From the NCBI RefSeq assembly GCF_003050785.1, contig NZ_QAOH01000005.1, forward strand, positions 1 through 64,000: a stretch of DNA of 64,000 bases, written 5' to 3'. The notes under the pieces are model-generated. The model had not been told where the DNA came from. It saw only the letters and a list, made by a program, of their open reading frames with translations, and did not search any database. The translations under genes and the position numbers were made by a program. Shown here piece by piece: positions 28,601 through 59,402 of the stretch. This DNA is from Celeribacter persicus (lineage in GTDB: Bacteria; Pseudomonadota; Alphaproteobacteria; Rhodobacterales; Rhodobacteraceae). The first letter of the stretch is position 1; each line of letters starts with the position of its first letter.

Positions 28601-29217
28601 GCCAATCTCGAGGTTTCATGCGATGTGGAGACTTGCGTAAAACCGATCTCCCGCGCGATCTCCGCGACGAGAATTTCATGCGCGGGTTCGAGATACCCAT
28701 GCAGGAAGGCGATGGCGACGGCGCGAATGCCCTGATCGAAAGCCGATTGCAGAGCGGTCCGCGCCACATCCTCATCCAGTGTCGTCACAACAGAGCCATC
28801 TGCCGCCAGCCGCTCCGGAATTTCCGCGACACTCTCATAGAGCAATTCGGGACGTTTGATCTCCAGCGAAAAAAGATCGGGCCGGGTCTGGTAGCCGATG
28901 CGCAACAGATCACGGAAACCTTCGGTGATCAGCAAAAGCACCCGCTCACCCTTGCGCTCCAGAAGCGCGTTGGTGGCGACCGTGGTACCCATCTTGACCG
29001 CTCCGATTGCACGCTCCGGGATCGGAGCGCCCGGCGCAAGGCCCAGAAGATCGCGAATGCCCTGTTCGGCGGCATCGCGATAACGCTCTGGATTGTTGGA
29101 CAGGAGTTTATGGGTGTGAAGACGCCCCGAAGGGTCGCGCCCCACCACATCGGTGAAGGTGCCGCCCCGGTCGATCCAGAAATCCCACTGCCTCGTGCTG
29201 CCCGTCTCTGCGCCCAT
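25621..29217 (-). CDS. Fused hydantoinase A/B-type 5-oxoprolinase
   Basis: 1198 residues from ATG 29217; the in-frame TTG-like start at 29274 would add residues unlike the family. The HyuA half (about 1-690) has [43 protein letters not shown] and AAGGGSIC, the ASKHA-type ATP site. The HyuB half (about 700-1198) has [17 protein letters not shown] and VPVHLGSM, then a Gly-rich end ([10 protein letters not shown]). Fused proteins of this length open 5-oxoproline or hydantoin-like rings with ATP. The gene is convergent with allA, and its position beside purine breakdown suggests a cyclic ureide or lactam, which remains inference. Confidence 0.9.
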
Positions 29218-29380
29218 ATCCGCCCCGCAATCCACCTGTCGCGGGAGGTTAGGAGATCGCGACACAGGCAACAAGACAGACAGCGGATCACGGGCACGGA
29301 CCAGCGTGGAATTTTCTGCCGAATTTCGGCGAAATCCCTCTTGACCCCCGCACTGTCCCCCTCTATCTACGCGGCACTTC

Positions 29381-29457
29381 GGCGGAGTAGCTCAGTTGGT
29401 TAGAGCAGCGGAATCATAATCCGCGTGTCGGGGGTTCAAGTCCCTCCTCCGCTACCA
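29381..29457 (+). tRNA. tRNA-Met(CAU), elongator type
   Basis: Full cloverleaf by eye: acceptor GGCGGAG pairs with CTCCGCT (first pair G-U), D stem GCTC/GAGC, anticodon stem GCGGA/TCCGC with loop ATCATAA (anticodon CAT), T arm GGGGGTTCAAGTCCCTC, and an encoded CCA. The D and T loops are standard. The 5' end is GG, not the CG of initiator tRNA, so it is an elongator Met tRNA; a lysidine-modified Ile2 tRNA cannot be fully excluded. It sits at the left border of the repeat-bounded catabolic block. Confidence 0.95.
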
Positions 29458-29602
29458 TATCCTCACAGCAAAACACTGGAATGATGTAGCTTTTCACAAA
29501 GCTCCAATCTGTTCCCACCATTTCTCCCACACTTCGGGCAATGGTTCGTCTACGGCTCATTCTCCGATTTCTCAAAAGAATCCGCGCTTTCAATAAGCGC
29601 CT

Positions 29603-29680
29603 AACCTGAGAAGAATGGAGAAACGAATGTCCAACACCCTTACCCAAGTCACCTCTGATCAAGATCTATGCGACTTGGCG
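29603..29680 (+). repeat. 78-bp direct repeat, left copy
   Basis: It matches 41793-41870 in the same orientation with 7 mismatches in 78 positions and no gaps. It contains a ribosome site and the first 18 codons of a short reading frame. It lies 146 bp after tRNA-Met, with the catabolic block between the two copies. Confidence 0.85.
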
Positions 29681-29722
29681 ACTCCCGCCAAAAAAATCAG
29701 GAGCGATCCGAACGACCTGTAA
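29627..29722 (+). pseudogene. Short ORF in the left repeat, probably truncated
   Basis: 31 codons from ATG 29627 with GGAGA five bases upstream. Its first 13 residues, MSNTLTQVTSDQD, nearly match the right-hand copy (MSNSLTQVTSDQN); the two then diverge, and this copy runs into the 3' end of the epimerase gene. It is probably the cut 5' end of a small gene. No family is recognised. Confidence 0.4.
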
Positions 29723-30944
29723 AATAACGACAATGATCGCGGATACCTTTGTAGTATCCGGAAAGATCTCGCGTCAGCGGATAGATACAGGCCTGCAGCG
29801 CATGATAGATGTCTGGTTTTCCAGTAAATTGCCGTTCCACGGGGCGCCCGACCTCATCAATTTCAGGATACCAGCCGCCCCGGTCATGATCCACGAAGAA
29901 ACGGTTGGCGACATTCCAAAGCCGTCTGAACCATTCAGCATCCACCTCTTTCAACGACAGTTTGTGCAGACTGGAAAACGCGCCCATCGCCTCTGCAACC
30001 GGCCACCAATAGCGATCTGACACGGCAACGTTCCCCTTGAAGTCAAGCGTGTAAGCGAACCCCCCCGTTGGTTGCCAAGCGGCATCTGCCGCCGTTTCTA
30101 TCAGCCGCCGTGCGATACGCGGCGCATCGGTGTTGGGCCGCCCTGAAAGGTCCCAATACTGTAAGAGCAGGCGCCCGAGTTCAAAAGAGTGACCGGGTGT
30201 CGTGCCAGCCGGACGGAACATCGGGTCGCCCGCATAGCTGCGATCTACCGCCCACTCGGCAGTATAATGCTCCGGGAGATGCCACCCGTATGCCGGCGCG
30301 ATCTCATTGGTAAAGAATGTCAGAATACGCCCCGCGCGGAGCAAGAAGACCTCGTCACCCGTCGCCTCGAAGGCGGAAAGAAACGCCTCAATGCCATGCA
30401 TATTGGCGTTCATGCCGCGATACTTGGAAAAAACCGTCCAATCCCGGCGAAACTCGTCGCGTAGCCGACCAGTCCCTTCATCCCAGAAATGCATGTCGAT
30501 GTCGGCGCACACCTCAGCCAACACGCGATCTGCCTCGTCATGGCCCGCCGCCTTTGCACTGGCCGCAGCCAAAAGAACAAAAACATGCCCATAGGCCAGT
30601 TTATCCTCGGAAACCGCGCCATTCCCACGGGCAATTGGCAAATAGCCGCCATAGAGCCGATCACGGTGTTCATTCTTCAACGCAGCCATCCCTGCATCTA
30701 AAATATCCGTGCAGGCCGGAGCCCCCGCAAGGTGTCCCAGAGCATAGGCATGCACCAAGCGCGCCGTGGTCATCAGCGTTTGTGGTTGATCGGGAATGGC
30801 CCGCCCCGCATGGTCCAGAAGATCGAACCCGCCATCGGATCGCAAACTCGCCTGGAAAAACTCGAGCTGCGCCAAAGCATTCGAGATCAGGACCGAGGCA
30901 AGCTCGGGGTCGACAAGAGAAGATGCTTCTGGCCGCGCAGACAT
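29697..30944 (-). CDS. AGE-family sugar epimerase/isomerase
   Basis: 415 residues forming an (alpha/alpha)6-barrel protein of the N-acylglucosamine 2-epimerase/YihS family. Active-site patterns: GHSFELGRLLLQYW (about 245-258), DRYWWPVAEAMGAF (about 312-325) and KPDIYHALQACIYP (about 385). Family members isomerise or epimerise mannose, sulfoquinovose, cellobiose or N-acylglucosamine. The substrate cannot be chosen from sequence. It is the last gene of the leftward set and follows ridA by 62 bp. Its 3' end lies next to the 78-bp repeat, so it marks the left edge of the block. Confidence 0.85.
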   Translation of the reverse strand: MSARPEASSLVDPELASVLISNALAQLEFFQASLRSDGGFDLLDHAGRAIPDQPQTLMTTARLVHAYALGHLAGAPACTDILDAGMAALKNEHRDRLYGGYLPIARGNGAVSEDKLAYGHVFVLLAAASAKAAGHDEADRVLAEVCADIDMHFWDEGTGRLRDEFRRDWTVFSKYRGMNANMHGIEAFLSAFEATGDEVFLLRAGRILTFFTNEIAPAYGWHLPEHYTAEWAVDRSYAGDPMFRPAGTTPGHSFELGRLLLQYWDLSGRPNTDAPRIARRLIETAADAAWQPTGGFAYTLDFKGNVAVSDRYWWPVAEAMGAFSSLHKLSLKEVDAEWFRRLWNVANRFFVDHDRGGWYPEIDEVGRPVERQFTGKPDIYHALQACIYPLTRDLSGYYKGIRDHCRYFTGRSDRS

Positions 30945-31006
30945 TGGCTTTCCTTTGAAATTGAACGAGGCGTCGCAACCTTTGCAACGCCCCCGATTGG
31001 CTGTGC

Positions 31007-31432
31007 TTAGCCCAGCGAAATCGTGATATGCTCAACGTCCGCCTTGGATGCGCCACGATAGGCCGTCACTTCGATTTCAACTTTGAAATCCGGCGCCCCA
31101 AGGGGCGAGCACGTCACGGTGCGCTGAGGATCGATGCCCTTCAGACGCTGACCGACATATTCCATAACTGCCTTGGCATCTTCGACATAGGGGATGAAAA
31201 TCTTCGACTGGACCACATCTTCGAGACAGGATCCGACGGATTTCAGTGCGCCTTCGATGTTGTTGAAACATTGTTTGGCCTGCTCGACGGCATCGGTGGA
31301 CATTTCGCGGGTCTTGTAATTGCGACCGGCAGTATTGGAGACGAAAATCCAGTCATCGACGGCAACGATGCGGGAATAGCTTTCTTTTTCCTCAAAGATT
31401 GAGCCGGATTTGACTTTGGTGATTTTGACCAT
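31007..31432 (-). CDS. RidA/YjgF-family imine deaminase
   Basis: 141 residues, close to family length. It shows the Rid fold pattern NNIEGALKSVGSCLEDVV, then IFIPYVEDAKAV, and the active-site Arg in DPQRTVTC with an EIEVTAYRG end. RidA hydrolyses reactive enamines and imines left by amino-acid oxidation or dehydration. A FAD-dependent amino-acid oxidase is encoded in the same set, which gives it a natural substrate. It lies 111 bp downstream of hyuB, with a hairpin in between, so its level may be set apart from the hydantoinase. Confidence 0.88.
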   Translation of the reverse strand: MVKITKVKSGSIFEEKESYSRIVAVDDWIFVSNTAGRNYKTREMSTDAVEQAKQCFNNIEGALKSVGSCLEDVVQSKIFIPYVEDAKAVMEYVGQRLKGIDPQRTVTCSPLGAPDFKVEIEVTAYRGASKADVEHITISLG

Positions 31433-31483
31433 GGGTATACCTTTCTTGGCCTGTACGTGGGTGTCACGAGAGTGAGAGAAACC

Positions 31484-31515
31484 AGCCCGCTCGCATTTGG
31501 GAACGAGAGCGGGCT
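31484..31515 (-). terminator. Hairpin between hyuB and ridA
   Basis: AGCCCGCTC (31484-31492) pairs with GAGCGGGCT (31507-31515) across a 14-nt loop, 29 nt after the hyuB stop. On the minus strand it is followed by GGTTTCTCTC, so it looks like a partial intrinsic terminator that would lower ridA and epimerase expression. Confidence 0.55.
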
Positions 31516-31543
31516 GACGAGAAACGCCATTAATCGGAAGAGG

Positions 31544-33172
31544 TTAGGCGTCTATCCCATAAACAGTCTTGGCGATGTCCGGGGTGATCCGTCCTTCGGC
31601 GAGATCGCGGGTAATTGCCTCGGGAGCGCGTTTCGCCGGATCGCCATAACCGCCCCCGCCGGGGGTGACGATCGCAACGATCTGGCCGGGTTTAAGATCG
31701 ACCATGCCGGAGAATTCGGTGCGCCCGTCGCCGAAATCGAGATGTGTGCACTCTGCACGGCCGCCGCCTTCCAGCCCCCAGGGGTAGGACGCCACGCGGG
31801 AGCCTTCGACTGTGAACCGACAGGCTTTCTCGGCGCGGTAAACACGCCGAATGCCCATACCGCCGCGGAACTCACCCGCTCCAGCAGACCCATCGACCAA
31901 CTCATATCGCAAAAGCGTCAGCGGATATTCGAGCTCCAACGCCTCGACCGGAAGGTTGGAAGTATTGGTCAGACCAACATGGATACCGGACAAACCATCG
32001 CCCGACGGTCGCGCACCGCCACCGCCGCCGATGGTCTCGAGATAGACCCAGATATTGCCGTCATCGTCCGTACCGTTGAAAATCGCACCGGTGCAGCACC
32101 CGTTGCCAGCGGCCATTACCTTGCCCGGAAGAGCTTTGGCGAGCGCACCATAGACCAGATCGGTGACACGCTGCGCGGCCGCGATGCGTCCGTCCACAGC
32201 CGCGGGATATTCGCAGTTCAGAATAGATCCTTTTGGGGCGGTCACCGTCAGAGGGCGCGCCAGCCCTGCGTTCGGAAGAACGGTCGGGTCCAGTACGGAT
32301 TTCACCGTGAAATAACATGCCGCGAGAAGCGAGGTATAGATCAGGTTCAGCCCACCCCGCACCTGCGGCGGTCCATCGAAGGACAGTGTCATCTCATCAC
32401 TCTTGACGGTGATCGCAACCTGAAATGTCATGACCTCTGCGCGCTGGTTGCTGTCGAACTGATCCTCGAATGTGTATGTTCCATCCGGAATCGCGGCGAT
32501 TGCAGCCCGCATTTTGCGCTCGGCATAATCCTGTAAAGCATCACCCGCAGCGAGAACCTTTTCCATGCCGTACTTGTCACAGAGATCGCTCATGCGCTGC
32601 ACGCAAAGACGGTTGGCTGACATTTGCGCACGCAGGTCCGAAATCCGTTCGCGCGGCACCTGACAGTTCAGCAGGAACATCTCCTGAAGGTCGGTGTTGA
32701 GCTCCCCCTCACGATAGAGACGTACCGGCGGGATACGCAGTCCTTCCTGATAGATGTGATCATGGCCGCGGTCTGCAAAATCTGAATGGTGCGCGGTGTT
32801 GACCGCCCATGCCACTAGGGTTCCCTGCACGAAAATCGGCTCTGCCAGAACGATATCGGGCAAATGCGTCGCCCCACCCGCATAGGCATCATTGGCCATA
32901 AAGACGTCGCCCGGCTTAATGTCCTGAAGCGCGAAACGGCTCAGGATTGCTGGGATCACCCCTAAAAAAGAGCCAAGGTGCATCGGGATATGTTCGGCCT
33001 GACACAGAGTATTTCCGCGATGATCAAAGAGTGCCGTGGAACAGTCGCGCCGCTCTTTGATGTTGGTCGAATAAGACGCACGCACCAACGCCTCGCCCAT
33101 TTCCTCGACAATGGATTGCAGTGCGGAGCCAATAACTTCGACGGTGATCGGGTCGATTGTCGGGGTCGTCAT
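31544..33172 (-). CDS. hyuB: Hydantoinase B/oxoprolinase subunit
   Basis: 542 residues, the usual length of stand-alone HyuB. Patterns: EVIGSALQSIVEEMGEALVR at residues about 9-28, NIKERRDCSTALFDHRG, HIPMHLGSF, and a Gly-rich end VTPGGGGYGDP. HyuB pairs with HyuA to open hydantoin- or oxoproline-type rings with ATP. Its start overlaps the hyuA stop (ATGA), as expected for equal subunit supply. It is separate from the fused copy at 25621-29217 and clearly diverged from it. Confidence 0.92.
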   Translation of the reverse strand: MTTPTIDPITVEVIGSALQSIVEEMGEALVRASYSTNIKERRDCSTALFDHRGNTLCQAEHIPMHLGSFLGVIPAILSRFALQDIKPGDVFMANDAYAGGATHLPDIVLAEPIFVQGTLVAWAVNTAHHSDFADRGHDHIYQEGLRIPPVRLYREGELNTDLQEMFLLNCQVPRERISDLRAQMSANRLCVQRMSDLCDKYGMEKVLAAGDALQDYAERKMRAAIAAIPDGTYTFEDQFDSNQRAEVMTFQVAITVKSDEMTLSFDGPPQVRGGLNLIYTSLLAACYFTVKSVLDPTVLPNAGLARPLTVTAPKGSILNCEYPAAVDGRIAAAQRVTDLVYGALAKALPGKVMAAGNGCCTGAIFNGTDDDGNIWVYLETIGGGGGARPSGDGLSGIHVGLTNTSNLPVEALELEYPLTLLRYELVDGSAGAGEFRGGMGIRRVYRAEKACRFTVEGSRVASYPWGLEGGGRAECTHLDFGDGRTEFSGMVDLKPGQIVAIVTPGGGGYGDPAKRAPEAITRDLAEGRITPDIAKTVYGIDA

Positions 33173-35223
33173 GCTTTGACCTCCAAAATGAGATTGAGAT
33201 AGGAATCCACCGTGCCGCGCATATCGGGCAGGATGACTGTGGTCGTGTCCATTTGCTCGATGATGGCCGGCCCCTCGATCACGTTACCGGCCATGAGCGC
33301 GTTGCGCGAATAGACCGGACAGGTAACGAAATCCCCGGCCTCCGCCATGTAGACATCCCGCGTGTCAATTCGCGCCTCAGAGGCATCCGGACCAACCGGC
33401 ACCTGCGGCTTGAACTGCGCCTTGTTGACGATCCCAGCCGCCTCGAGGCGAAGCGTCACGAGCTGGATCGGCTCTCCCTCGGCAATGAAACCGAAGCGCT
33501 GGCGGTGGGCGGCCTCAAAGCCCTCTTCAAGTGCCTTGAAGGTCTCTGCGGTAATCGGCCCCGCAGGCACTGCCACGGACAGTTCGTAGTTTTGACCCAT
33601 ATAGCGCATGTCGACCGTGCGCGTCATAACGCGGCAATCTTTGGCGATGGCCTCATTGTCGAACCAGATCCCGGCCTGCGCCATGAGATCGGCAAACCCG
33701 CTTTCGACCGCACCCAGAGCGTTCTCATCGAGCGGCATCAGGCGAGAGATTGCGAAATCTGCCCGCAAATCGGTTAGCAAAAGACCAAGCGCGCAGAGCG
33801 TTCCGGGCGTCAACGGCACGATGACTTTGGCCATGTCCAATTCGCGCGCCAGACGCGCTGCATGAAGCGGCCCCGCGCCCCCGAAAGCCATAAGCGCATA
33901 GTCGCGCGGGTCGTGACCGCGTTGCACAGATATCACCCGGATCGCTTTCGCCATATTGGCGGTAACAACGGAAATGATGCCCTGTGCCGTTTCCATCACG
34001 CCAAGACCCAGCTTGTCGGCAAGCCGTTGCACTGAGGCCATCGCCAGATCGCGGCGCACTTTCATCCGCCCACCCAGAATTTCGACCGGGTTCAGTGTCT
34101 GAAGCACGATATTGGCGTCTGTCACGGTTGGCTCCTCATTGCCCAGACCATAACAGACCGGCCCCGGATGTGCGCCAGCCGAACGCGGACCGACCTTCAA
34201 AAGCCCGCCGGTATCAACATGCGCGATAGACCCCCCGCCGGCGCCCACCGTGTGAATGTCGAGCATCGGTGCCTTGATCGGATACCCATGCACATCGGCC
34301 TCACCGGTGAGCTGGCACACCCCGTTTTTGAGCAGCGCGACATCCGACGACGTACCGCCGACATCAAAGGTGATGATATTGTCGAACCCGGCCATTTTTC
34401 CAATGGCCTGCGCCGCCACCACCCCTGTCGACGGGCCGGACAGCACCGTGCGTACCGGTAGATTCGCGGCCGTATCAAACCCGATAACACCGCCGTTCGA
34501 CTGAGTGAGCTGAGGCGCGATCTCAAGGCCGATCTCTGTGAGACGGTCTTTAAGACGGCGGATATAACGATGCATCACCGGGCCGAGATAGGCGTTCACA
34601 ACCGTGGTCGAAAGACGTTCAAACTCACGGAACTCCGGCGCGACATCATGAGAGGTCGACACGAAAACATCCGGAAGCTCTTCGGCAATCACACGCTTGG
34701 CAAGCTCTTCGTGTTCGGTGTTGAGAAACCCGTAGAGAAAGCACACCGCAAGGGACTTGATGTCTTGCGTTGCCAGCGCCTTAAGCTCAGTGCGCAGTGC
34801 CGCCTCATCAAGCGGCACATCAACCGTGCCGTCATGATGCAACCGCTCCGGCACCTCGCGCCGCAAATCGCGGGACACGAGCTGTTCGGGTTTTTCCGCA
34901 AACATGTCGTAAAGGTTCGGACGCTTCTGCCGCCCGATCTCCAGCAAGTCGCGAAAACCGTCAGACACGATCAGCCCCGTTTTGACGCCACGCAACTCAA
35001 TCAGGGCATTCGTCGCCACCGTGGTGCCATGCCCCAGAAAGGACAAATCCTTAGCCGTTGCGCCCACTTGATCCAAGCCTTCGACCACCCCGGCAGTGAT
35101 CCCGCGTGATGGATCATCCGGTGTCGACGACACCTTCCAGATTTCGACTTTCCCGGTCTCTTCATCAAACAAGCACACGTCCGTGAACGTGCCACCCGAG
35201 TCTACGCCAATTCTCCAGGCCAT
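33169..35223 (-). CDS. hyuA: Hydantoinase A/oxoprolinase subunit
   Basis: 684 residues, standard for HyuA. ATP-site patterns of the ASKHA fold: GVDSGGTFTDVCLFD (about 5-19), [16 protein letters not shown] (about 63), TFDVGGTSSDVALL (about 280), and GAGGGSIAHVD. It provides the ATP-dependent half of a ring-opening enzyme. It follows the oxidase gene after 21 bp and overlaps hyuB by 4 bp. Placed between an importer, an amine oxidase and RidA, it probably frees an amino acid from a lactam, hydantoin or similar ring; the real substrate is not known. Confidence 0.92.
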   Translation of the reverse strand: MAWRIGVDSGGTFTDVCLFDEETGKVEIWKVSSTPDDPSRGITAGVVEGLDQVGATAKDLSFLGHGTTVATNALIELRGVKTGLIVSDGFRDLLEIGRQKRPNLYDMFAEKPEQLVSRDLRREVPERLHHDGTVDVPLDEAALRTELKALATQDIKSLAVCFLYGFLNTEHEELAKRVIAEELPDVFVSTSHDVAPEFREFERLSTTVVNAYLGPVMHRYIRRLKDRLTEIGLEIAPQLTQSNGGVIGFDTAANLPVRTVLSGPSTGVVAAQAIGKMAGFDNIITFDVGGTSSDVALLKNGVCQLTGEADVHGYPIKAPMLDIHTVGAGGGSIAHVDTGGLLKVGPRSAGAHPGPVCYGLGNEEPTVTDANIVLQTLNPVEILGGRMKVRRDLAMASVQRLADKLGLGVMETAQGIISVVTANMAKAIRVISVQRGHDPRDYALMAFGGAGPLHAARLARELDMAKVIVPLTPGTLCALGLLLTDLRADFAISRLMPLDENALGAVESGFADLMAQAGIWFDNEAIAKDCRVMTRTVDMRYMGQNYELSVAVPAGPITAETFKALEEGFEAAHRQRFGFIAEGEPIQLVTLRLEAAGIVNKAQFKPQVPVGPDASEARIDTRDVYMAEAGDFVTCPVYSRNALMAGNVIEGPAIIEQMDTTTVILPDMRGTVDSYLNLILEVKA

Positions 35224-35244
35224 GCGTGTAGTCCCTGTTAGTTT

Positions 35245-36576
35245 TTATGCCGCTATTCGTGCGGCTTCGGAATGAGTGTTTTTGAACCGTGTTAAACGGA
35301 ACGGTTTCGGATCGATGCGCGGCGTCACGCCACGGACCATTTCTGCCATCATTTCACCGGCACCGGGGCCAGAGCCAAAACCGTGCCCGGAAAAGCCCGC
35401 CGAAAGAAAGAGCCCCGGAATGGCTTCCACTTCGGAAATCACGGGGATGGCGTCGGGTGTTGCGTCGATCATCCCAGCCCAGGAATGAGTCTGGCGGGCA
35501 TCGGCAAACCCCGGAAAAACCTTGGCAAGATTTTTCAGGGTGTTCCGGTTGAAAGGCTCATGGGGCAAAGGGTCAAGTGTGCGGATTTTTTCGAACGGTG
35601 TGACCTCATCCAGTGCCCAGTGCCGCGGCATTTTCAACTCGCTCAGGAACTGGCCGCCGACCCGGATTTTCAACTCTCGCCAACTGCTCAGGAGCGTCGG
35701 AAAAAACTCTGGCATCAAGCGGAAGCTATCTGGCACGATCGGAGCGACATTGGCATTGCGTTGCGCCACGGTGTAGCCACCGTCCAGCCGCTTGCGGAAG
35801 GAAAAGTCACCACCTCCAACCGGCATCTGCGGGACATCTGCCGCGCTTTCGATCCGCGCCGCTGTGCCAAGCAGTTTGAGCTGAGGAAAATTGATCCCGA
35901 GATTGCCGAGAAACAAACGCGACCATGCGCCGCCCGCGAGCAACGCGCGCTCGGTTTTGATCGTGCCTTTTTCCGTGACCACCCCGGACAGCGCTCCACC
36001 GCTGTGTTCGATCCCACGCACAGCACAGTTTTCCACGATCACCGCGCCCAGCCGTTGCGCGGCCTGCGCCATTTGAGGGACGGCTTTCCAAGGTTCCGCG
36101 CGGCCGTCCGTTTTGGTGTGCAGCCCCATGGAGTAGCGGTCGGAAATACCCGGAAGCACCTCCTGAAGCCCTTTGCGATCGAGTTTGCAGGAGGCCATAT
36201 TGGCTTTTTCTGCATAAACGGCCCAGTCGGAAAATTCCTTGATCTCCGCGCGAGTGCGACACACATAGGTAATGCCGGTTTCCCGATAGCCCGTATCGAT
36301 CCCGAACCGCTGATCGATCTCGCGCCAAAGCTCAAGAGAACGGATGGTCAGCGGCAGTTCCAGAGGGTCGCGTCCCATCTGACGCACCCAGCCCCAGTTG
36401 CGCGCGCTCTGTTCCGCACCAACCCTCCCTTTTTCGCAGAGCACGACTTTCACTCCGGCTTCAGCCAGATAAAGTGCGGTTGCGACACCGGCAATTCCTC
36501 CCCCGATGATCACCATATCGGCGTGGTGGGGAGGATTTTCATCTGATTTAATTTTTTGGATGTTATCGAGGATCAT
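35245..36576 (-). CDS. FAD-dependent amino-acid oxidase (DAO family)
   Basis: 443 residues. The FAD-binding motif is MVIIGGGIAGVATALYLAEA (about 21-40), with Glu at the end of strand 2 (VVLCEKG). The C-terminal part has the DAO-family closing pattern WAGMIDATPDAIPVI, then AGFSGHGFGSGPG. Such flavoproteins oxidise the C-N bond of glycine, sarcosine, D-amino acids or opine-like amines to imines. RidA in the same set would clear the imine. It lies 7 bp after the SDR gene and 21 bp before hyuA. No signal peptide is seen. Confidence 0.88.
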   Translation of the reverse strand: MILDNIQKIKSDENPPHHADMVIIGGGIAGVATALYLAEAGVKVVLCEKGRVGAEQSARNWGWVRQMGRDPLELPLTIRSLELWREIDQRFGIDTGYRETGITYVCRTRAEIKEFSDWAVYAEKANMASCKLDRKGLQEVLPGISDRYSMGLHTKTDGRAEPWKAVPQMAQAAQRLGAVIVENCAVRGIEHSGGALSGVVTEKGTIKTERALLAGGAWSRLFLGNLGINFPQLKLLGTAARIESAADVPQMPVGGGDFSFRKRLDGGYTVAQRNANVAPIVPDSFRLMPEFFPTLLSSWRELKIRVGGQFLSELKMPRHWALDEVTPFEKIRTLDPLPHEPFNRNTLKNLAKVFPGFADARQTHSWAGMIDATPDAIPVISEVEAIPGLFLSAGFSGHGFGSGPGAGEMMAEMVRGVTPRIDPKPFRLTRFKNTHSEAARIAA

Positions 36577-36583
36577 GGCAGGC

Positions 36584-37300
36584 TCACAACGTATCTTCGA
36601 GGCGGCAATTGACCAACATTTCAGCCATCGCGGCCGTGTTCGGCAATTCGATCGCTGTGCGCACGAGACCGGCCAGCGTTTCAGGCTGAATCATTTCGTC
36701 CGGCGTGACTTTTTTCGTATAGGCACTCATTTCCGTGCGCACGAACGAGGGGCAGATTGCCGTCGCGCGCACCCCTTTGTCCCATCCAACAAAACGCGTC
36801 GTGTGGTGCAGGCCCATCATCGCATATTTGGTCATATTGTAGCCGACAAAGGCATTGCGCACGCGTTTGCCTGACAAAGACACTATATTGATGACCCGCC
36901 CACGGCCGGTCTCCTCAAGATGCGGCATGCACAACCGTATCAAACGCAAAGGCGCCTTGACGTTCACTTCCCATAGGCGGTCGAGGGCATCTTCGTTGTC
37001 ATCCATGAGATGCACATGTTCTCCATTCCCCGCATTGTTCACAAGCCCGTCTATACGCCCGAAGCGCTCAACGGTCGCAGCAACCCAGTCTTCTGCTGTT
37101 TTGGACTCATACGCATCAAAACGCGCATAAAGCGTCATATCATCGGAAGAGCCATAGGCTTCCTCGAGCTTTTCCACAGACCTTGCGCCCAAAGACAGGC
37201 GATATCCCGCCCCTTTAAGCTCGCGAACGATGGCTGCACCGATCCCTCTATTGGCTCCAGAAATGAGAATTACTGGAGCATTTTTATCATGAGTCGTCAT
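36584..37300 (-). CDS. Short-chain dehydrogenase/reductase
   Basis: 238 residues from ATG 37300, which has GGGA upstream; an in-frame ATG at 37369 would add 23 residues without family match or ribosome site. NAD(P) motif GANRGIGAAIV (about 14-24), NNAGNG, catalytic Ser in NIVSLSGK, and the YxxxK pair in YNMTKYAMMG. It is a classical SDR that would reduce a keto group or oxidise an alcohol. It is the first gene of the leftward catabolic set, divergent from the TRAP genes over 340 bp. Substrate unknown. Confidence 0.9.
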   Translation of the reverse strand: MTTHDKNAPVILISGANRGIGAAIVRELKGAGYRLSLGARSVEKLEEAYGSSDDMTLYARFDAYESKTAEDWVAATVERFGRIDGLVNNAGNGEHVHLMDDNEDALDRLWEVNVKAPLRLIRLCMPHLEETGRGRVINIVSLSGKRVRNAFVGYNMTKYAMMGLHHTTRFVGWDKGVRATAICPSFVRTEMSAYTKKVTPDEMIQPETLAGLVRTAIELPNTAAMAEMLVNCRLEDTL

Positions 37301-37640
37301 ATAGCTATGTCCCGTGGTCAAACATTCAGATGGATCCATCGAATCCACCGGTTCCTCAAGCTTGCTCATTTATGACGCTTTGTGAATGAAAAAATCAAAT
37401 TAGCAGGGGAATGCGGTCCGAAACGCCCAAATTCGGTGATATTGATTAATAATTGCGCACATAACGCGCTTAAATGCGTAGGCATGCTGTCATTGCTTGA
37501 CATATATTGACGCTTTATGGCCGCATTGTTGCATGATCGCGCACAACTGATGCACTGACAAATCTACCAACGCGTTTTTCCGTGGATAGAGAGCCCGAGA
37601 ATGGCCGATACTCCACCCAACTCAGAACAGGGAAATCAAC
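37301..37640. promoter_or_regulatory. Divergent promoter region of the catabolic block
   Basis: 340 AT-richer bases between the SDR and the TRAP binding protein. A dyad TGTCA-TTGCT-TGACA spans 37488-37502, and GCGCACA occurs twice (near 37455 and 37539). These could be sites for the DeoR regulator at 40740. No complete -35/-10 pair could be assigned with confidence. Confidence 0.4.
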
Positions 37641-38660
37641 ATGACCTTCACACGTCGCACATTCTTGCAAACTGCCACGGCAACCGGTGCGCTTTTGGCT
37701 ACCGGATGGCCAGCCTCGGCGAAATCGGTCACCTGGGACATGGCCGATGAATATGGCGCACAGGCGCTTTCTGGCAAAGCCTCCGCATATTTCCTAGCAG
37801 AACTGGAAAAGAAAATCGGTGACGCGCTTGTCATCAACTATCAGGGCGGCGGCGCGCTTGGCTATAAATCCGTCGATCACTTCGATGCGGTGCAGGATGG
37901 TGCCGTGCAATGTGCCGTCACCCTTGTGACCCAACTTGGTGGCATTGATCCGTTCTTCAACCTCTCATCGCTTCCCTTCATCGCATCGACTCCGGAAGAA
38001 GCCTATCTTCTCTGGCTTGCGGCGCGCGATGAGTATGCAAAGATTTTCGAGGAAAACGGGATGGTACTGCTCTGGGCGATGCCGAACCCGCCATCCGGCA
38101 TCAACGCACCGACACCGATCACCACGATCGACTCGCTCAAGGGGCTGCGCATCCGGACCTATGACGTGAACGGCACCGAAACCATGATGAACGCAGGTGC
38201 TGCGCCACTTCAGGTCGCATGGTCCGATCTCATCCCGCAGCTGTCTACCGGCGGAATCGACGCGGTTCTCACCTCTGCCGACGGCGCGATGCAACTGTCG
38301 CTTTGGGATTACGTGAGCGACTTCACCGAGATGAACTACGCCATGGGCCTCTTTATGTGCCACGTGAACAAGGATGAATTCGACGCCCTGCCTAAAGAGG
38401 TTCAGACGGCCATGACGGAAATCCTTGAGGATTGCGACAAATACAACTGGCGGATCATGCGCGACTCGATCGAGGCGGCCTACACCAAGATGAGCACGAA
38501 CGGCATGAAGATCACCTATGACGACGATGTCCCCACCGAAGTGTTCGATCATCTCAAAAAGGCGGGCGATCAGGTCAAGGTGAGCTGGCTCGCCGAAACC
38601 GGCGACAAAGGCGCTACCGTGCTGGCGAAGTTTGAAGAGTTGAAAGCCAACGCTGGCTAA
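37641..38660 (+). CDS. TRAP transporter solute-binding protein (DctP family)
   Basis: 339 residues. The N-terminus TRRTFLQTATATGALLATG looks like a Tat-type or Sec signal ending near PASAKS. The mature part has the DctP pattern LKGLRIRTYDVNGTETM (about 168-184), where the Arg normally binds the carboxylate of the ligand, followed by STGGIDAVLTSADGAM. It would catch a carboxylate-bearing compound in the periplasm for the DctQM pump. The first of three transport genes, it is divergent from the enzymes at 29697-37300, which suggests that its ligand feeds that pathway. Confidence 0.9.
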   Translation: MTFTRRTFLQTATATGALLATGWPASAKSVTWDMADEYGAQALSGKASAYFLAELEKKIGDALVINYQGGGALGYKSVDHFDAVQDGAVQCAVTLVTQLGGIDPFFNLSSLPFIASTPEEAYLLWLAARDEYAKIFEENGMVLLWAMPNPPSGINAPTPITTIDSLKGLRIRTYDVNGTETMMNAGAAPLQVAWSDLIPQLSTGGIDAVLTSADGAMQLSLWDYVSDFTEMNYAMGLFMCHVNKDEFDALPKEVQTAMTEILEDCDKYNWRIMRDSIEAAYTKMSTNGMKITYDDDVPTEVFDHLKKAGDQVKVSWLAETGDKGATVLAKFEELKANAG

Positions 38661-38774
38661 AACTGCTCTTATTAGGCGCATCCCTTGCCCTGATACTGCG
38701 CCCGAGCCGACCGCAACTCCGCTTGGGCGCAGCCCTCTTTAATAACAGGCTCCAAAAACAAGGATGCGCATACG

Positions 38775-39359
38775 ATGACTGACCCGCAGATTCCCGAGAT
38801 TCCGGAAATTCAACGACATCTTCATCCAACCGTCACAGACGACCCAGCCTGGCTAAAACGGATTGATGGGGTATCGACAGTCCTCAACCGCATCGCAGCG
38901 GTGATCGCCGCGACGTTTCTGGTGCTCATGACCCTGCTCATTCTGACGGAAATCACCCTGCGTCTGTTTTCTCTCTCGACATATATGGCCGATGTGCTTG
39001 TGGGGTATGGTGTGGCCGCCATCACTTTTCTGGCCGCGCCCTGGGCACTTCAGGAAGGCGCGATGATACGCGTCACGGTCCTCACCGAGCGTATGAACGT
39101 GCGGCTTCGTTGGGTGTCGGAAGCGTTTGTTCTATTCTCTGTCGGATTTATCATCTTGTTCCTGATGGCCTATCAATGGAAATCCGTGGCCAAACTCTTT
39201 GCCCGGGGATCGACCAGCCAGCATTTCATCCCGATACCGCTCTGGATCCCAGAAAGTTTTTTTCTGATCGGTCTCGCCCTCATCCTGCTTCAAATCATCG
39301 TGCGTATCCTGCGCCTGTTCACTGTCGGCCATGCCGAAGAACGCGCTCTGAGCCTCTAA
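38775..39359 (+). CDS. TRAP transporter small membrane subunit (DctQ family)
   Basis: 194 residues. Four hydrophobic helices (about 40-60, 75-92, 115-133, 155-178), as in DctQ proteins, with a soluble N-terminus of about 35 residues. DctQ links the binding protein to the DctM channel; the pump uses a Na+ gradient. It is 114 bp after dctP, a larger gap than usual, and 13 bp before dctM. Confidence 0.9.
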   Translation: MTDPQIPEIPEIQRHLHPTVTDDPAWLKRIDGVSTVLNRIAAVIAATFLVLMTLLILTEITLRLFSLSTYMADVLVGYGVAAITFLAAPWALQEGAMIRVTVLTERMNVRLRWVSEAFVLFSVGFIILFLMAYQWKSVAKLFARGSTSQHFIPIPLWIPESFFLIGLALILLQIIVRILRLFTVGHAEERALSL

Positions 39360-39372
39360 AGGAAGGGTCCCC

Positions 39373-40677
39373 ATGTCTATCACACTCTCCGCGCTCATCG
39401 TCCTTGGCCTTCTTGCGCTTTTTCTCGGCGCGGGGGCTTGGATTTTCTCTGGCCTGCTGCTTGTGGGTGCGTCCGCGATGTACGTCATCCTCGATTTTTC
39501 GCCCGCTCGGATCGGGTCCATCGCGACAAAGGTAATTTCCTCCTCGGCCATTTCATGGGAACTCGCCGCCATCCCGATCTTTATGTGGATGGGGGACATC
39601 ATCTTCCGAACAGACATTTCCCAGCGCCTTTTTCGCGGTCTCGCCCCCTTGGTTGCGCGCATTCCGGGTGGGCTCTTGCATACCAATGTCCTTGGCTGCA
39701 CCGTCTTTGCAGCCATTTCAGGCTCCTCAACAGCGACCACGGCAACGGTCGGAAAAATCACGATCCCCGAATTGCGCAGACGCAACTATGACCTGAAATT
39801 GGCAGCCGGATCGCTGGCTGGCGCCGGGTCGTTCGGTTTGTTGATCCCCCCCTCCATCGCCATGATCGTTTATGGCGTCTTGGCCGAAGTTTCGATTGCC
39901 AAGCTTTTTGCGGCCGGCCTTATACCGGGCCTCATGATGGCCATTCTCTATGTTGGCTACATCACCGTCATGTCCATGATCGATCCGTCGCGCGCACCGA
40001 AATACGACGGAGAAGTGACGCTTCGAACGATCCTGCGCGGGCTCGTAGACCTTACACCCATCGTACTGCTTATGTTCATCGTGCTTGGGTCGATCTATTC
40101 AGGGATTGCCACCCCCTCCGAAGCCGCCGCCGTTGGCGTCTTTGGCGCAATACTGATCACCATCGTAACGGGGCAATTTTCGATACCGCTCATGCTCGAC
40201 AGCCTGCTTTCAACGATCCGTGTCTCGGCGATGATCCTTATCCTGATCGCCTCGTCCTCCTTTCTCTCCTCCGCCATCGCCTATATGCATTTGCCCGGCA
40301 TGATTACCGAGGGAATTTCGGCCATGGATTTGTCGCCTTACGGCGTGCTTTTGATTCTCGCCGCCCTTTATATCATCCTAGGGATGTTCCTTGACGGCAC
40401 GTCTATGACCGTCATGACAGTGCCGATTGCGGTTCCTCTCATCGTTCAGGCCGGGTTCGATCCGCTATGGTTTGGTGTTTACCTTGTGATCATGATCGAA
40501 ATGAGCGCCTTGACGCCTCCGGTCGGCTTGAACCTCTTTGTGCTACAGGGCCTCACAGGGCAGTCTATGGGAGAAACCACCCGCGCTGCAGCTCCTTTTT
40601 TCCTGTTGCTCTGCCTTGGAACCATCATTCTGGCGGCATTTCCGCAGATTGTCTTGTGGCTTCCAAACGCCCTATAA
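39373..40677 (+). CDS. TRAP transporter large membrane subunit (DctM family)
   Basis: 434 residues with about 12 helices. The family pattern appears in AISGSSTATTATVGKITIPE (about 115-134) and SLAGAGSFGLLIPPSIAMIV, and again near EMSALTPPVGLNLFVLQG. DctM is the transport channel of the TRAP system. It has a normal length and a good ribosome site (GGAAGGG). It is followed by the regulator after 62 bp. Confidence 0.93.
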   Translation: MSITLSALIVLGLLALFLGAGAWIFSGLLLVGASAMYVILDFSPARIGSIATKVISSSAISWELAAIPIFMWMGDIIFRTDISQRLFRGLAPLVARIPGGLLHTNVLGCTVFAAISGSSTATTATVGKITIPELRRRNYDLKLAAGSLAGAGSFGLLIPPSIAMIVYGVLAEVSIAKLFAAGLIPGLMMAILYVGYITVMSMIDPSRAPKYDGEVTLRTILRGLVDLTPIVLLMFIVLGSIYSGIATPSEAAAVGVFGAILITIVTGQFSIPLMLDSLLSTIRVSAMILILIASSSFLSSAIAYMHLPGMITEGISAMDLSPYGVLLILAALYIILGMFLDGTSMTVMTVPIAVPLIVQAGFDPLWFGVYLVIMIEMSALTPPVGLNLFVLQGLTGQSMGETTRAAAPFFLLLCLGTIILAAFPQIVLWLPNAL

Positions 40678-40739
40678 CAGAACGCAATTACAGAGAAGAC
40701 CGCCATAGAAGCGCGATCTATTTGGAGGAGGAGAACGGT

Positions 40740-41546
40740 TTGAACGATTTCGATGACACGATGAATGATGAGATGCTCCCAGCGGAACGTCGCCAGCATC
40801 TCATTGACTGGTTCAAACAAAATCAGGCGGGCTCCAGTCAGGATCTTGCACGTATGTTCGGCATTTCTCTGTCGACCATTCGCCGGGACCTGGACCTTCT
40901 GGCTTCTGAAGGGTTGGTTCGACGCACCCATGGCGGCGCCGTGGCAATCCGGTCGCGCACCACCTATGAGCCGTCAACAGATCTCGCAAGACGCACGGCC
41001 GTCGAAGAAAAGCAGGGAATCGTGAACGAAGCGCTCAAACTGATTGAACCACATCAGTCGCTTTTGCTCGATACAGGTGCGGTGATCTGTCATATTCTGG
41101 CCGACGAGATCGCGCAGCTCGACATTCCCCTGACGGTCATTACCAACGATCTATACGTCGCCAAGGCCCTGACCTACCGACAAAATATCACGTTGATCGT
41201 TCCAGGTGGAGCGTGCCGGTTCGGCTCGTACAGCCTTTTGGGCGAACCCGGCGAAAGCTTTCTGAAAAACCTTCACTGCGATATCTTTTTCATGTCAGCC
41301 GCAGCCGTCGACGAAAGCGGCGTTTCGGAAACCCTCCTCGAACTGGTCCATCTCAAACGTGCCATGATCGATGCAGCCACCAACGTCGTCCTTTTGGCGG
41401 ACAGCAGTCGCTTTATGTCGCGCGCCCTACATCGCACTGTTCCGATCAACCAGATCGGGCACATCATCACGGACAGCGGCCTCTCTGAAGAGGATCGTTT
41501 AAAATTTCCGGAACGGAAGCCCGCTTTTACAATCGTAGAGATTTGA
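40740..41546 (+). CDS. DeoR-family transcriptional regulator
   Basis: 268 residues from TTG 40740, chosen because GGAGGAG stands eight bases upstream; ATG 40761 has no ribosome site. The N-terminal winged helix has the DeoR signature: SSQDLARMFGISLSTIRRDL then RTHGGAV. The C-terminal effector domain (about 100-255) resembles the ISOCOT fold of DeoR proteins that sense phosphorylated sugars or related acids. It is at the end of the TRAP operon, so it probably controls the divergent catabolic and transport genes from the 37301-37640 region. Confidence 0.9.
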   Translation: MNDFDDTMNDEMLPAERRQHLIDWFKQNQAGSSQDLARMFGISLSTIRRDLDLLASEGLVRRTHGGAVAIRSRTTYEPSTDLARRTAVEEKQGIVNEALKLIEPHQSLLLDTGAVICHILADEIAQLDIPLTVITNDLYVAKALTYRQNITLIVPGGACRFGSYSLLGEPGESFLKNLHCDIFFMSAAAVDESGVSETLLELVHLKRAMIDAATNVVLLADSSRFMSRALHRTVPINQIGHIITDSGLSEEDRLKFPERKPAFTIVEI

Positions 41547-41792
41547 AGCGATGGCCCGAAGCCCAAAATATTCGAGGTATTCGGAAAATGGAGGTGCTTT
41601 GCAAATATGCTGCCAACCCCACTGGAAAGATTCTCGATTTTAGAAAAGTATTGAGCGACCGCGCTGCAAAGACGCGGGCAAGCAATTTTTACAGTAAATT
41701 GCGCCCGTGAGGCTTTTGTCAACAAAGCGAATACATCCCAAAGAAGCTGACGAAATAGAATTCGCGGATCAAACTGAACGCCTCAAACGGGA

Positions 41793-41870
41793 AACCTCAG
41801 CAGAATGGAGAAACGAATGTCCAACTCCCTTACCCAAGTCACCTCTGATCAAAATCTTTACGACTTGACG
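41793..41870 (+). repeat. 78-bp direct repeat, right copy
   Basis: Same orientation as 29603-29680, 71 of 78 positions identical by eye. The distance between copies is 12,190 bp. It includes a ribosome site and the first 18 codons of a short ORF. Confidence 0.85.
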
Positions 41871-41936
41871 CTTCAGTGCCGCGATCTCTCCGCATTGCTC
41901 GAAGATAACCAGATCGAACTCGACAGCGAAAATTGA
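41817..41936 (+). CDS. Hypothetical 39-residue protein in the right repeat
   Basis: From ATG 41817 with GGAGA five bases upstream; residues begin MSNSLTQVTSDQNLYDLTLQ and end LEDNQIELDSEN. It is acidic and hydrophilic. It is probably the more complete form of the cut ORF at 29627. No family is recognised. The copies differ in protein-changing positions as often as silent ones, so selection for the protein is not evident. Confidence 0.4.
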   Translation: MSNSLTQVTSDQNLYDLTLQCRDLSALLEDNQIELDSEN

Positions 41937-42006
41937 GAGAAGAAGCTGGGGGAATTATCGCCCTCGCCAGCATCTTGCATGAGCGGATGTAAAAGGCGGC
42001 ACACAC

Positions 42007-42267
42007 ATGCGATCCGGTGACGCTTCGCAAAGTTCGGGAAGTCGGCTCCTAAGCCATAGCCACTCAATGACACTTTCAGGATGGCTGAGAACCGCGCAGG
42101 ATCGCGGCTGGACCGTTGACCAGATTACTCTGGAGGCGATTTCTCTGCGCTGCACCGGGCAAGGCTGCAGTGCGCATATATCCCGTGCTTTTTCTTCGCT
42201 CGGCACTCTCCTCTACAAAATCAGGCACGTTTTAAAGAAAAGCCTGTGCACACAGAGAACATTGTAG
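42007..42267 (+). CDS. Doubtful 86-residue ORF or gene remnant
   Basis: It contains WLRTAQDRGWTVDQITLEAI followed by SLRCTGQGC, which looks protein-like and could be part of a small zinc-ribbon protein. There is no clear ribosome site, and the C-terminal part is unlike a folded protein. Possibly the remnant of a gene disrupted at the block border. Confidence 0.25.
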   Translation: MRSGDASQSSGSRLLSHSHSMTLSGWLRTAQDRGWTVDQITLEAISLRCTGQGCSAHISRAFSSLGTLLYKIRHVLKKSLCTQRTL

Positions 42268-42375
42268 ACCACCCAGAATGAGAACAAATCTCATCACCAC
42301 GCAGCGGGGGGTTAGCCTCAAGAGAGGGCAGACAGGCGAATGCACGTCACGCTGACCGCTCGCGAACGCCTGAAA

Positions 42376-42397
42376 CGGGGCGCCGAACAGCGCCCCG
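42376..42397 (-). terminator. Intrinsic terminator of the OFA transporter gene
   Basis: CGGGGCGC (42376-42383) pairs with GCGCCCCG (42390-42397). On the minus strand it is followed by TTTC, 11 nt after the transporter stop. Confidence 0.7.
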
Positions 42398-42407
42398 CTT
42401 GTTCGTC

Positions 42408-44129
42408 TTACTCTATCGGAATTGCTTGAAGCTCAGGTTCGTCATGGTGGTGATGTTCTTTCACCGGGCGCATGAACAGGTTTGCGAAGAAGGCCACAAC
42501 CAACAATGCCGCCATGCAATACATGGTCGTGTTGTAAAGTGACGGGGTCGGGTCGATGGTGCCCTCGGGCGCGATCTCCATCAGCTTGGCAATGGTCACG
42601 GTCTTAGCCGCCATCAGTTCCTGAAGCTGCGAGATCGGGGCACCGAACTTTTCGGCGAAGGCCGCAGGGTCGACCTTGCCCGCCAGGTCATTGATGGCCG
42701 AGGTCACGGACATCTGCCGCAGCGAGGTGATCGCTAATGGGCCCAACACACCCGCAGTGGACCACGCCGTCAAAATCCGCCCGTGGATACCGCCCACATG
42801 CATGGTGCCGAACATGTCGGCCAAGTAGGCCGGGATCGTGGCGAAGCCGCCGCCATACATCGAGAAGATGATCATCGTCGCGACGTAGAAGCCGATCAGG
42901 TAGATCATCGCCGGGTTCGTCGCCACGGCCGAGGCGAAATAGGGGATCGACAGATACAGGATCGTACCCAGCACGAAGAAGCACATGTAGGTCGTCTTGC
43001 GTCCGATGAAGTCAGAGGTCGAGGCCCAGAAGAACCGCCCCACCATGTTGAAAACCGAAATCATCAGCACGTAGGTCGAGGCGAAGGCGGCGGTGACCAC
43101 CAGAGGCATGACCGAACCGAAGATTTCCGACATCATCGTCTTGGCAACCCCGATGACGCCGATCCCGGCAGTCACGTTGAAGCAGAGCATGATCCACATT
43201 TGCCAGAATTGCGGCGTCTTCAGCGCCTGGTCGATATGGACGTTGTTTTGCGACACCATGCCCGAGGCGACAGGCTTGGGCTGCCATCCGGCGGGTTTCC
43301 AGCCCTCGGCGGGAACGCGATACTGGAACGAGGCCAGGATCATGACGATAAAATAGACCACACCGAGCGTCAGGAAGGTCTGCGCCGCGCCGGTCTCACC
43401 GGTGCCTACGACATAGACGCCTGCTTCTCCGCCGAAACTTGCGGCCTGCGCGGCAGAGGCGATCACGACCTCGACCTTGCCCATGGCAGTTTCGGCGAAG
43501 ACCCGGCCGTTCTCGACCACGGTTGTCACGGTGCCCTGCGCGCCCAGAAAGTCGGGCGCCTTGGCATAGATGCTCAACAGCCAGCCCTTGACCGGGGCGG
43601 CGATCATCGCGCCACCGCCGAAGCCCATGATGGCCATTCCGGTCGCCATGCCACGCCTGTCCGGGAACCAGCGGAGCAGCGTTGATACGGGCGAGACATA
43701 GCCGAGGCCGAGACCGCAACCGCCCAGCACCCCGTAGCCAAGATAGATCAGCCAAAGCTGGTGGCTTGATATTCCGAGGGAACCAATGATGAAGCCGCCG
43801 CCCCAGAGGAACGCGGCGACAACGCCGACCATGCGCGGGCCCACGTCCTCAAGCCACTTGCCCGCGAAAGCCGCAGAGAGGCCAAGGAAGACGATGGCGA
43901 CGGAGAAGATCCAGACGACCGAGCTGAGGCTCCAGTCATCGGCGCTGGACGCCACGACGCCCAGTTCTCGGGTCAGCGGCTGGTTGAAGACGGACCAGGC
44001 ATAGACCGACCCGATGCACAGATGGATCGCGATGGACGCAGGCGGGACTCGCCAGCGGTTGAAACCGGGTTCGGCGACGATGTGGCTCTTATGCAGAAAC
44101 CCCAGCGCACCACCAGATGCGTTGTTCAT
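42408..44129 (-). CDS. OFA-family MFS carboxylate transporter
   Basis: 573 residues from ATG 44129, behind GGGAGG. Twelve-helix MFS protein of the oxalate/formate antiporter branch; the OFA pattern IHLCIGSVYAWSVFNQPL is at about residues 34-51, and GMATGMAIMGFGGGAM at about 165. A hydrophilic insert of about 55 residues (about 195-250) lies between the two halves, and the C-terminus has a His-rich HHHHDEPE. Substrate is probably a small carboxylate such as oxalate or formate. A sensor/regulator pair is encoded upstream on the same strand, and a palindrome lies 177 bp before the start. Confidence 0.88.
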   Translation of the reverse strand: MNNASGGALGFLHKSHIVAEPGFNRWRVPPASIAIHLCIGSVYAWSVFNQPLTRELGVVASSADDWSLSSVVWIFSVAIVFLGLSAAFAGKWLEDVGPRMVGVVAAFLWGGGFIIGSLGISSHQLWLIYLGYGVLGGCGLGLGYVSPVSTLLRWFPDRRGMATGMAIMGFGGGAMIAAPVKGWLLSIYAKAPDFLGAQGTVTTVVENGRVFAETAMGKVEVVIASAAQAASFGGEAGVYVVGTGETGAAQTFLTLGVVYFIVMILASFQYRVPAEGWKPAGWQPKPVASGMVSQNNVHIDQALKTPQFWQMWIMLCFNVTAGIGVIGVAKTMMSEIFGSVMPLVVTAAFASTYVLMISVFNMVGRFFWASTSDFIGRKTTYMCFFVLGTILYLSIPYFASAVATNPAMIYLIGFYVATMIIFSMYGGGFATIPAYLADMFGTMHVGGIHGRILTAWSTAGVLGPLAITSLRQMSVTSAINDLAGKVDPAAFAEKFGAPISQLQELMAAKTVTIAKLMEIAPEGTIDPTPSLYNTTMYCMAALLVVAFFANLFMRPVKEHHHHDEPELQAIPIE

Positions 44130-44186
44130 TAATGTAACCTCCCTTTTCGATCCGGGCGACGGCCTCCTACCGCGGGCCCGATGAGC

Positions 44187-44204
44187 GGCATGCGACGACA
44201 TGCC
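44187..44204. promoter_or_regulatory. Short dyad upstream of the OFA transporter
   Basis: GGCATG-CGACGA-CATGCC (44187-44204) is a perfect 6-bp dyad about 58-75 bp before the start. Read on the minus strand it resembles a sigma-54 -24 element (TGGCAT), but the GC of the -12 element is one base too close. Confidence 0.3.
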
Positions 44205-44305
44205 ATAGCGCAGAAAGGAACACAGGCACTTACAAAGTCAAGAAAATATGTAAATAAAACAATTGGTTGAGATTACATTTTGACCACGCGCGCACTTCTG
44301 ATAGT

Positions 44306-44326
44306 GACAAAATGGGACATTTTGTC
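44306..44326. promoter_or_regulatory. 9-bp palindrome, likely enhancer site of the NtrC-type regulator
   Basis: GACAAAATG (44306-44314) and CATTTTGTC (44318-44326) are perfect arms with a 3-bp centre, 177 bp before the transporter start. The position and symmetry fit an upstream activator site for the response regulator encoded at 46328-47680. This binding is inferred. Confidence 0.6.
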
Positions 44327-44372
44327 CGGCCTCTTGTCACGCGAAGGGTAAAATCGGGTCAGACTGTCTGGA

Positions 44373-47680: not shown

Positions 47681-47910
47681 CCTTGTATCCCATGTCCAAC
47701 TTAAATCGCTTCACCCATCAAGCGCAAATAACCTATGATTGGCAAGTCGGTGAGCCGTTGACGAGCAACTTCTGCGCAACTGCCATCAAAGGCTGCGGAG
47801 CGCGTGATGTCTTATGGTCCGTTACCATCTCTCCCAAACATTATGAATAAACGCCGCCTCATCGGATGCGCGGACGTTTGTACGCTATGCCAATCTTCAG
47901 GATTGAGCCC

Positions 47911-49914: not shown

Positions 49915-49944
49915 GAGCGGCTCCAACAACAGGGAAACATCACA

Positions 49945-50178
49945 ATGAGCGCTATTCAATCCCCCCTCCCCGGCACGTTTTACCACAAACCCTCCCCGGA
50001 AGAGCCGCCATTCAAGGCACCCGGCGACAAAGTGGCCGTCGGCGACCAGATCGGTCTCGTGGAAGTGATGAAAACCTTCATCGCGGTCAATTCCGAGGTC
50101 GAAGGCACCTTCAAAGGTTACAGTGTCGAGGATGCGACCCCCGTCACGGCGGGTGCCGTGCTCGCGGAGCTTGAGTGA
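49945..50178 (+). CDS. Biotin/lipoyl carrier protein (AccB-like)
   Basis: 77 residues consisting of a single biotinyl domain. The biotin-accepting Lys is in the motif EVMKT (usually EAMKM), at about residue 44, with GDQIGLVEVMKTF around it. Its short size without the long N-terminus of AccB points to a dedicated carrier for this operon rather than fatty-acid synthesis. One base separates its stop from the next start. Confidence 0.9.
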   Translation: MSAIQSPLPGTFYHKPSPEEPPFKAPGDKVAVGDQIGLVEVMKTFIAVNSEVEGTFKGYSVEDATPVTAGAVLAELE

Positions 50179-50179
50179 C

Positions 50180-59389: not shown

Positions 59390-59402
59390 GGGAGGCCCGG
59401 GC

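Follow-up and report, generated by a model that had tools for sequence, protein, structure and literature searches.

The 64,000-bp window analyzed here, positions 1–64,000 of contig NZ_QAOH01000005.1 of Celeribacter persicus (genome G000; assembly GCF_003050785.1), harbors a block of ten catabolic genes, about 12.1 kb long, that interrupts a native locus downstream of a tRNA-Met gene, with a 78-bp unit doubled at the two ends of the block. It is a real but in kind ordinary islet of acquired catabolic genes, which lacks an integrase and is flanked by a long duplication. The 78-bp unit covers the initial 18 codons of a small gene and the 24 bp that precede them. The left copy stops after codon 18 and is followed by unrelated sequence; the right copy continues into the broken rest of the small gene and then into the remnant of a helix-turn-helix (HTH) gene. 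The counterpart locus without the block was found in Celeribacter litoreus ASW11-22 (genome G007; NZ_JAIUFY010000014.1). The features that define the locus in the window are as follows:

29381..29457, + strand: tRNA-Met (CAT), predicted by ARAGORN
29603..29680, + strand: 78-bp unit, left copy (the sequence upstream of it is native)
41793..41870, + strand: 78-bp unit, right copy (the sequence downstream of it is native)
41817..42034, + strand: broken remainder of the small gene, found by tblastn of the C. litoreus small protein, with a stop after codon 39, a frame change and a second stop
42067..42204, + strand: N-terminal remnant of the HTH gene that is whole in C. litoreus (tblastn, 63% over 46 amino acids)

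The two copies of the unit lie on the same strand and align ungapped with 71 of 78 positions identical (7 differences), including exact runs of 24 and 26 nt, whereas exact repeats of at least 20 nt were observed in 0 of 20 shuffles of the window. An earlier reading made from the letters of the DNA (the sequence-only reading) had described these repeats as about 91% identical, ungapped and equally oriented, and as enclosing an importer, enzymes and a regulator just after a tRNA; both descriptions were borne out, with 145 bp between the 3' end of the tRNA-Met and the left copy. The possibility, named by the same reading, that the unit is a common dispersed repeat was ruled out, as the whole genome of C. 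persicus (4.30 Mb, 94 contigs) carries it twice and otherwise yields just two 14-bp matches (E 3.5), which were attributed to chance. No second repeat pair of this kind was found in 24–64 kb, where the other repeat families are 71–88% alike over 24–48 nt. A longer right copy was also rejected, the faint likeness upstream of 41793 being no better than shuffles, and a 27-bp match of the same upstream stretch in genome G088 falls within an ABC-transporter gene and was regarded as fortuitous.

The genus comparison set comprised 20 Celeribacter genomes, C. persicus included. The unit was detected in two of them, C. persicus and C. litoreus, and the catabolic block stands at the unit in C. persicus only, so the arrangement is not one that is conserved throughout the relatives. 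In C. litoreus (locus L056), the tRNA-Met is followed by a single unit, the whole small gene of 78 codons and the whole HTH gene, which is the kind of relative, with one repeat and no block, that the sequence-only reading had proposed to look for. Window positions 29335–29667 align with L056 9116–9446 at 81%, and positions 41804–42156 align with L056 9393–9746 at 73%; the two alignments overlap inside the unit on L056, so the flanks of the block are contiguous in C. litoreus. The sequence upstream of the left copy is native, its score of 103 against C. litoreus being reached by 0 of 300 shuffles, whereas the sequence upstream of the right copy is not, its score against C. litoreus being reached by 145 of 300 shuffles and its score against the left upstream sequence by 44 of 300. 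It is this empty site, together with the native and non-native sides of the copies, that identifies the block as an interruption and the unit as doubled.

The relative age of the duplication was assessed over 68 alignable sites, at which the left and right copies differ 5 times, while C. litoreus differs from the left copy at 17 and from the right copy at 18. The left and right copies were the closest pair in 0.9986 of 10,000 site bootstraps. Given that the C. litoreus sequence is the most distant of the three, the duplication most likely postdates the split from that species. The 5 coding differences between the copies comprise 3 that changed on the right and 2 that changed on the left, and the remaining 2 of all 7 differences are located upstream and unpolarised.

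Gain of the block by transfer is suggested mainly by the empty site, by composition and by patchy presence. The GC content of the block is 56.4%, lower than the 61.8% found left of the tRNA and the 60.7% of 42.3–62.5 kb, a departure from the flanks of the sort that the sequence-only reading had wished to see compared. Among the 20 genus genomes, the only other HyuA above 44% identity to that of the block belongs to C. litoreus, which has its own version of the operon on another contig (HyuA 86%), without the SDR and RidA genes. The trees of HyuA and HyuB (22 rows) place the window and C. litoreus within the same wider clade.

The tRNA-Met locus was compared in 9 of the 19 relatives, and the tRNA was present in 9 of 9. 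Different sequences follow its 3' end, with G001, G002 and G003 sharing one sequence and G004, G014, G018, G008, G010 and C. litoreus having others. In G004 (locus L050, contig C49, 4627–11906), a 7.2-kb stretch is bounded by an exact 53-bp repeat that consists of the 3' part of the tRNA and the next 3 bases, which gives two tRNA tails there and a positive control, and a Phage_integrase gene lies near the far repeat. This stretch is a classical tRNA-att integrase island at the same tRNA-Met as the window block, and the two share this landing region. They differ in their boundaries: the G004 island repeats the tRNA end and carries an integrase, whereas the tRNA end beside the window block is single and no integrase accompanies it. 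As the 3' end of the tRNA-Met (28 nt, up to 5 mismatches allowed) occurs once in the window, a tRNA-end att repeat was ruled out. The sequence-only reading had stated correctly that the tRNA end is unrepeated, that no integrase was seen and that the block is not a simple tRNA-att island; as possible origins it had named a duplication, recombination between copies of a small gene, or the loss of an integrase. What is added beyond that reading is the identity of the unit as the 5' end of a small protein gene, the native side of each copy, and the att-flanked integrase island at the same tRNA elsewhere.

The small resident gene encodes a protein without a Pfam match at E 1, with weak PHROG matches only (best E 0.16) and with no match in phage records, and its region has no match in plasmid records; a phage or plasmid origin of the gene was therefore rejected. 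In the family comparison set of 394 genomes (393 genera), the small protein was found in C. persicus only, among the matches listed, with C. litoreus not among these.

The favoured explanation is att-like, that is site-specific, integration. A foreign catabolic operon of about 12.1 kb would have been inserted into the start of the small resident gene downstream of the tRNA-Met, on this Celeribacter lineage after the split from C. litoreus, through the integration of an element bearing its own copy of the gene's 5' end. The insertion would have left the 78 bp as a direct target duplication, in which the upstream sequence ends in a truncated copy and the downstream sequence starts with a second one, in which the upstream region and the first 18 codons are retained; the integrase would have acted in trans or been lost since, the small gene would have decayed after the insertion, and the block would now resemble a cis-mobilizable element. 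Att repeats at a gene start often keep that start, and integration of this type would explain both the sharp ends of the block and the kept gene start; the true integrase island at the same tRNA-Met in G004 was also counted in its favour. Some hallmarks of cis-mobilizable elements are present, namely direct repeats at both ends, a one-copy empty site and no integration or transfer genes among the ten genes of the block, and its mobility is putative. Islands that lack an integrase and lie between att repeats are known, such as the ssrA islands of Dehalococcoides without an integration module (PMC3146451). For the recombination step, which we infer, att-like integration by an integrase that was lost or acted in trans ranks above break repair and above recombination with a donor, and it is put forward tentatively, just short of being called probable.

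Several observations weigh against att-like integration. It needs an integrase that was lost or acted in trans and att sites that diverged, and the copies differ at 9%, above the expectation for fresh att repeats. None of the ten block genes encodes an integrase, all of them being metabolic, transport or regulatory; Phage_integrase (PF00589) gave 20 matches in C. persicus, with 0 of 20 on the window contig (serine recombinases were not searched genome-wide), and the 78-bp unit, having two copies only, lies beside none of those 20 integrases. Inverted repeats in the unit are not above chance (144 and 148 of 200 shuffles), a test made uninformative by the att control of G004, which behaves likewise (57 of 200). 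The empty site is known from one genome, C. litoreus; gene conversion between the copies could mimic the age order; and the forks that part the window from C. litoreus in the HyuA and HyuB trees are without strong support (87/92 and 83/87).

The alternative that survives best, although rather unlikely, is illegitimate insertion or break repair, in which a long staggered break or replication template switching would have taken up the DNA of the operon and left a copy of the 78 bp at each side, without a recombinase. It agrees with the absence of an integrase from the block and of a tyrosine integrase from the contig, and with a unit that has no recognisable recombinase site; common transposases duplicate 2–14 bp, and 78 bp, being far beyond this, was counted on the same side. 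However, a duplication that keeps the gene-start region would then be a matter of chance, and C. persicus has no Ku, which was found in 1 of the 20 genus genomes (G006), so that classical end joining is unlikely and Ku-dependent joining is ruled out. Clearly less plausible is homologous recombination with a donor in which the block already stood upstream of this small gene; a crossover would have taken place in the homologous right side and an illegitimate joining on the left, and the gene start of the recipient itself would have become the left copy. This would account for the 9% difference between the copies, and one-sided homology with illegitimate joining is a described route (PMC3240628), but no donor was found among the 20 genus genomes or among the 394 family genomes searched with the small protein, and the original insertion is shifted to another strain. 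A tandem duplication of the gene start that later received the block, or loss of a shared block from C. litoreus by recombination between the repeats, would give the same final anatomy, as such recombination would delete the block and leave one unit, but either is improbable, since an insertion exactly between tandem copies is hard to expect and copies older than the split should be as distant from one another as from C. litoreus but are less so (5 versus 17 and 18 of 68), unless gene conversion levelled them. A composite or unit transposon was rejected, as the block genes include no transposase and the unit, present just twice, codes for the start of the small gene.

The ten genes of the block combine HyuA, HyuB, an FAD oxidase, RidA and an importer in one cluster, and the largest gaps in the row formed by the block genes and the repeats are 271 and 246 bp (open reading frame table):

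29697..30944, - strand: AGE-family sugar isomerase/epimerase (PF07221, 4.6e-95; D-mannose isomerase model 298 bits, under the cut-off of 600)
31007..31432, - strand: RidA-family protein (PF01042, 1.5e-18)
31544..33172, - strand: HyuB, hydantoinase B/oxoprolinase (PF02538, 4e-170)
33169..35223, - strand: HyuA, hydantoinase A/oxoprolinase (PF01968, PF05378, PF19278)
35245..36576, - strand: FAD-dependent amine/amino-acid oxidoreductase, DAO (PF01266, 4.5e-70; nearest solved structure L-amino acid deaminase 5fjm)
36584..37369, - strand: SDR oxidoreductase (PF00106, 3.7e-38)
37641..38660, + strand: DctP, TRAP substrate-binding protein (PF03480, NF037995)
38775..39359, + strand: DctQ, TRAP small permease (PF04290)
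39373..40677, + strand: DctM, TRAP large permease (PF06808; TIGR00786 over its cut-off)
40773..41546, + strand: DeoR-family regulator (PF00455, PF08220; reading frame open from 40467, ATG at 40773 chosen by the domain matches)

HyuA/HyuB-type enzymes open lactam or imide rings with ATP, and RidA proteins can hydrolyse the imine products of L-amino acid deaminases. Among solved structures, HyuA and HyuB come nearest to 7hk5 (N-methylhydantoinase) and 6yra (named 5-oxoprolinase/hydantoinase in its deposition), and the curated caprolactamase models (CapA/CapB) gave 612 and 275 bits, below their cut-offs of 1000. Judging from these gene families, the cargo perhaps imports and degrades an acidic lactam or a sugar-amine compound. 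ATP-dependent ring opening would fall to HyuAB and release of the amine or amino acid to the FAD oxidase and RidA; the SDR and perhaps AGE would process the sugar part, and DeoR would control the set. The catabolism of agropinic acid in Agrobacterium presumably employs HyuAB-like proteins. A HyuA/HyuB pair of pTiEU6 has been suggested to open lactam opines (PMC6733357), and mannityl opines come from a sugar-glutamine conjugate (PMC4231840). Three oxoprolinase-type ring-opening systems lie close together in the window, which include a HyuA-like protein of 1217 amino acids at 25621–29274 (probably 5-oxoprolinase, by inferred name), the HyuAB of the block at 31544–35223, and LamB/YcsF with biotin carboxylase and carboxyltransferase at 49135–53389 (PxpABC-like, by inferred name).

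In G001, G002 and G003, a backbone matching window position 62451 resumes about 2.9 kb after the tRNA, so that 29.5–62.4 kb of the window is a larger variable region. The tRNA-Met genes of G003, G002 and G001 (loci L052, L053 and L064) differ at 6 positions from those of the other relatives, mostly in the 3' part and including a matching change in the acceptor stem, as if the gene had been replaced. Window positions 42345–47803, encoding a major facilitator superfamily (MFS) transporter and a two-component system, are 91.6% identical to G003 at another place (L057), where the MFS reading frame is in two pieces; the flank towards the tRNA reaches just 74% identity with G003, and 42345–47803 is probably another recent exchange. 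A periplasmic glucan cluster (MdoG, glycosyltransferase, OpgC) occupies 57402–62400, in the variable region just before the backbone.

At this locus the gain of an operon by a marine alphaproteobacterium is plainly documented, with the empty site, the occupied site and the relative age all legible in the sequence. A single tRNA-Met locus is host to a classical integrase island in G004 and, in the window, to an islet that lacks an integrase and lies between two copies of the start of a protein gene. None of the titles obtained in limited literature searches concerns this locus, and no absence from print is claimed beyond them. A general route that inserts operons at the starts of small genes, with target duplications of about 80 bp that keep the gene start each time and a recombinase acting in trans or none at all, is highly doubtful; if it were true, such islets would be missed by tools that seek integrases or repeated tRNA ends.

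The cargo was compared with known systems by gene order at 76 named loci from other genera. The nine-gene order DeoR-DctM-DctQ-DctP / SDR-FAD oxidase-HyuA-HyuB-RidA was whole in 6 of the 76, from Maritimibacter (2), Flavimaricola (1) and Martelella (3), and was also observed on the Martelella plasmid pMM593, with the same order as the window and 58–91% identity; since this order recurs in other genera and on a plasmid, the operon moves as a unit. To these nine genes the window adds AGE, which was present in 0 of the 76 loci within the flanks examined. AGE relatives occur in 67 of the 394 family genomes (best 62%), and in 11 family AGE loci, viewed over about 1.5 kb on each side, no other block gene stands beside AGE; plasmid matches to 29300–30944 comprised 238 records, of which the eight listed are all annotated AGE. 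AGE was therefore rejected as a fixed part of the operon, and it may be a separate gain, because its relatives are common in the family and had no other block gene beside them in those 11 loci. The Agrobacterium plasmid pAoF64/95 shares SDR, FAD oxidase, HyuA, HyuB, RidA, DeoR and AGE with the window at 42–76% identity, with ABC importers between HyuB and RidA instead of the TRAP importer of the window, and its AGE gene adjoins DeoR and is 42% identical to that of the window; a role of AGE in the pathway draws on this plasmid alone, because in the 11 family loci AGE lacks operon neighbours. This tie between a marine HyuAB, FAD oxidase and RidA operon and a plasmid-borne catabolic cluster of Agrobacterium points to a testable substrate class. 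As for the form of the element, the Dehalococcoides ssrA islands offer a comparison: the repeat of the window block is the start of a small protein gene rather than the end of an RNA gene, and is 78 bp long and 9% diverged, whereas both (PMC3146451 for the islands) share the absence of integration genes, catabolic cargo, terminal direct repeats and insertion beside a tRNA or tmRNA gene.

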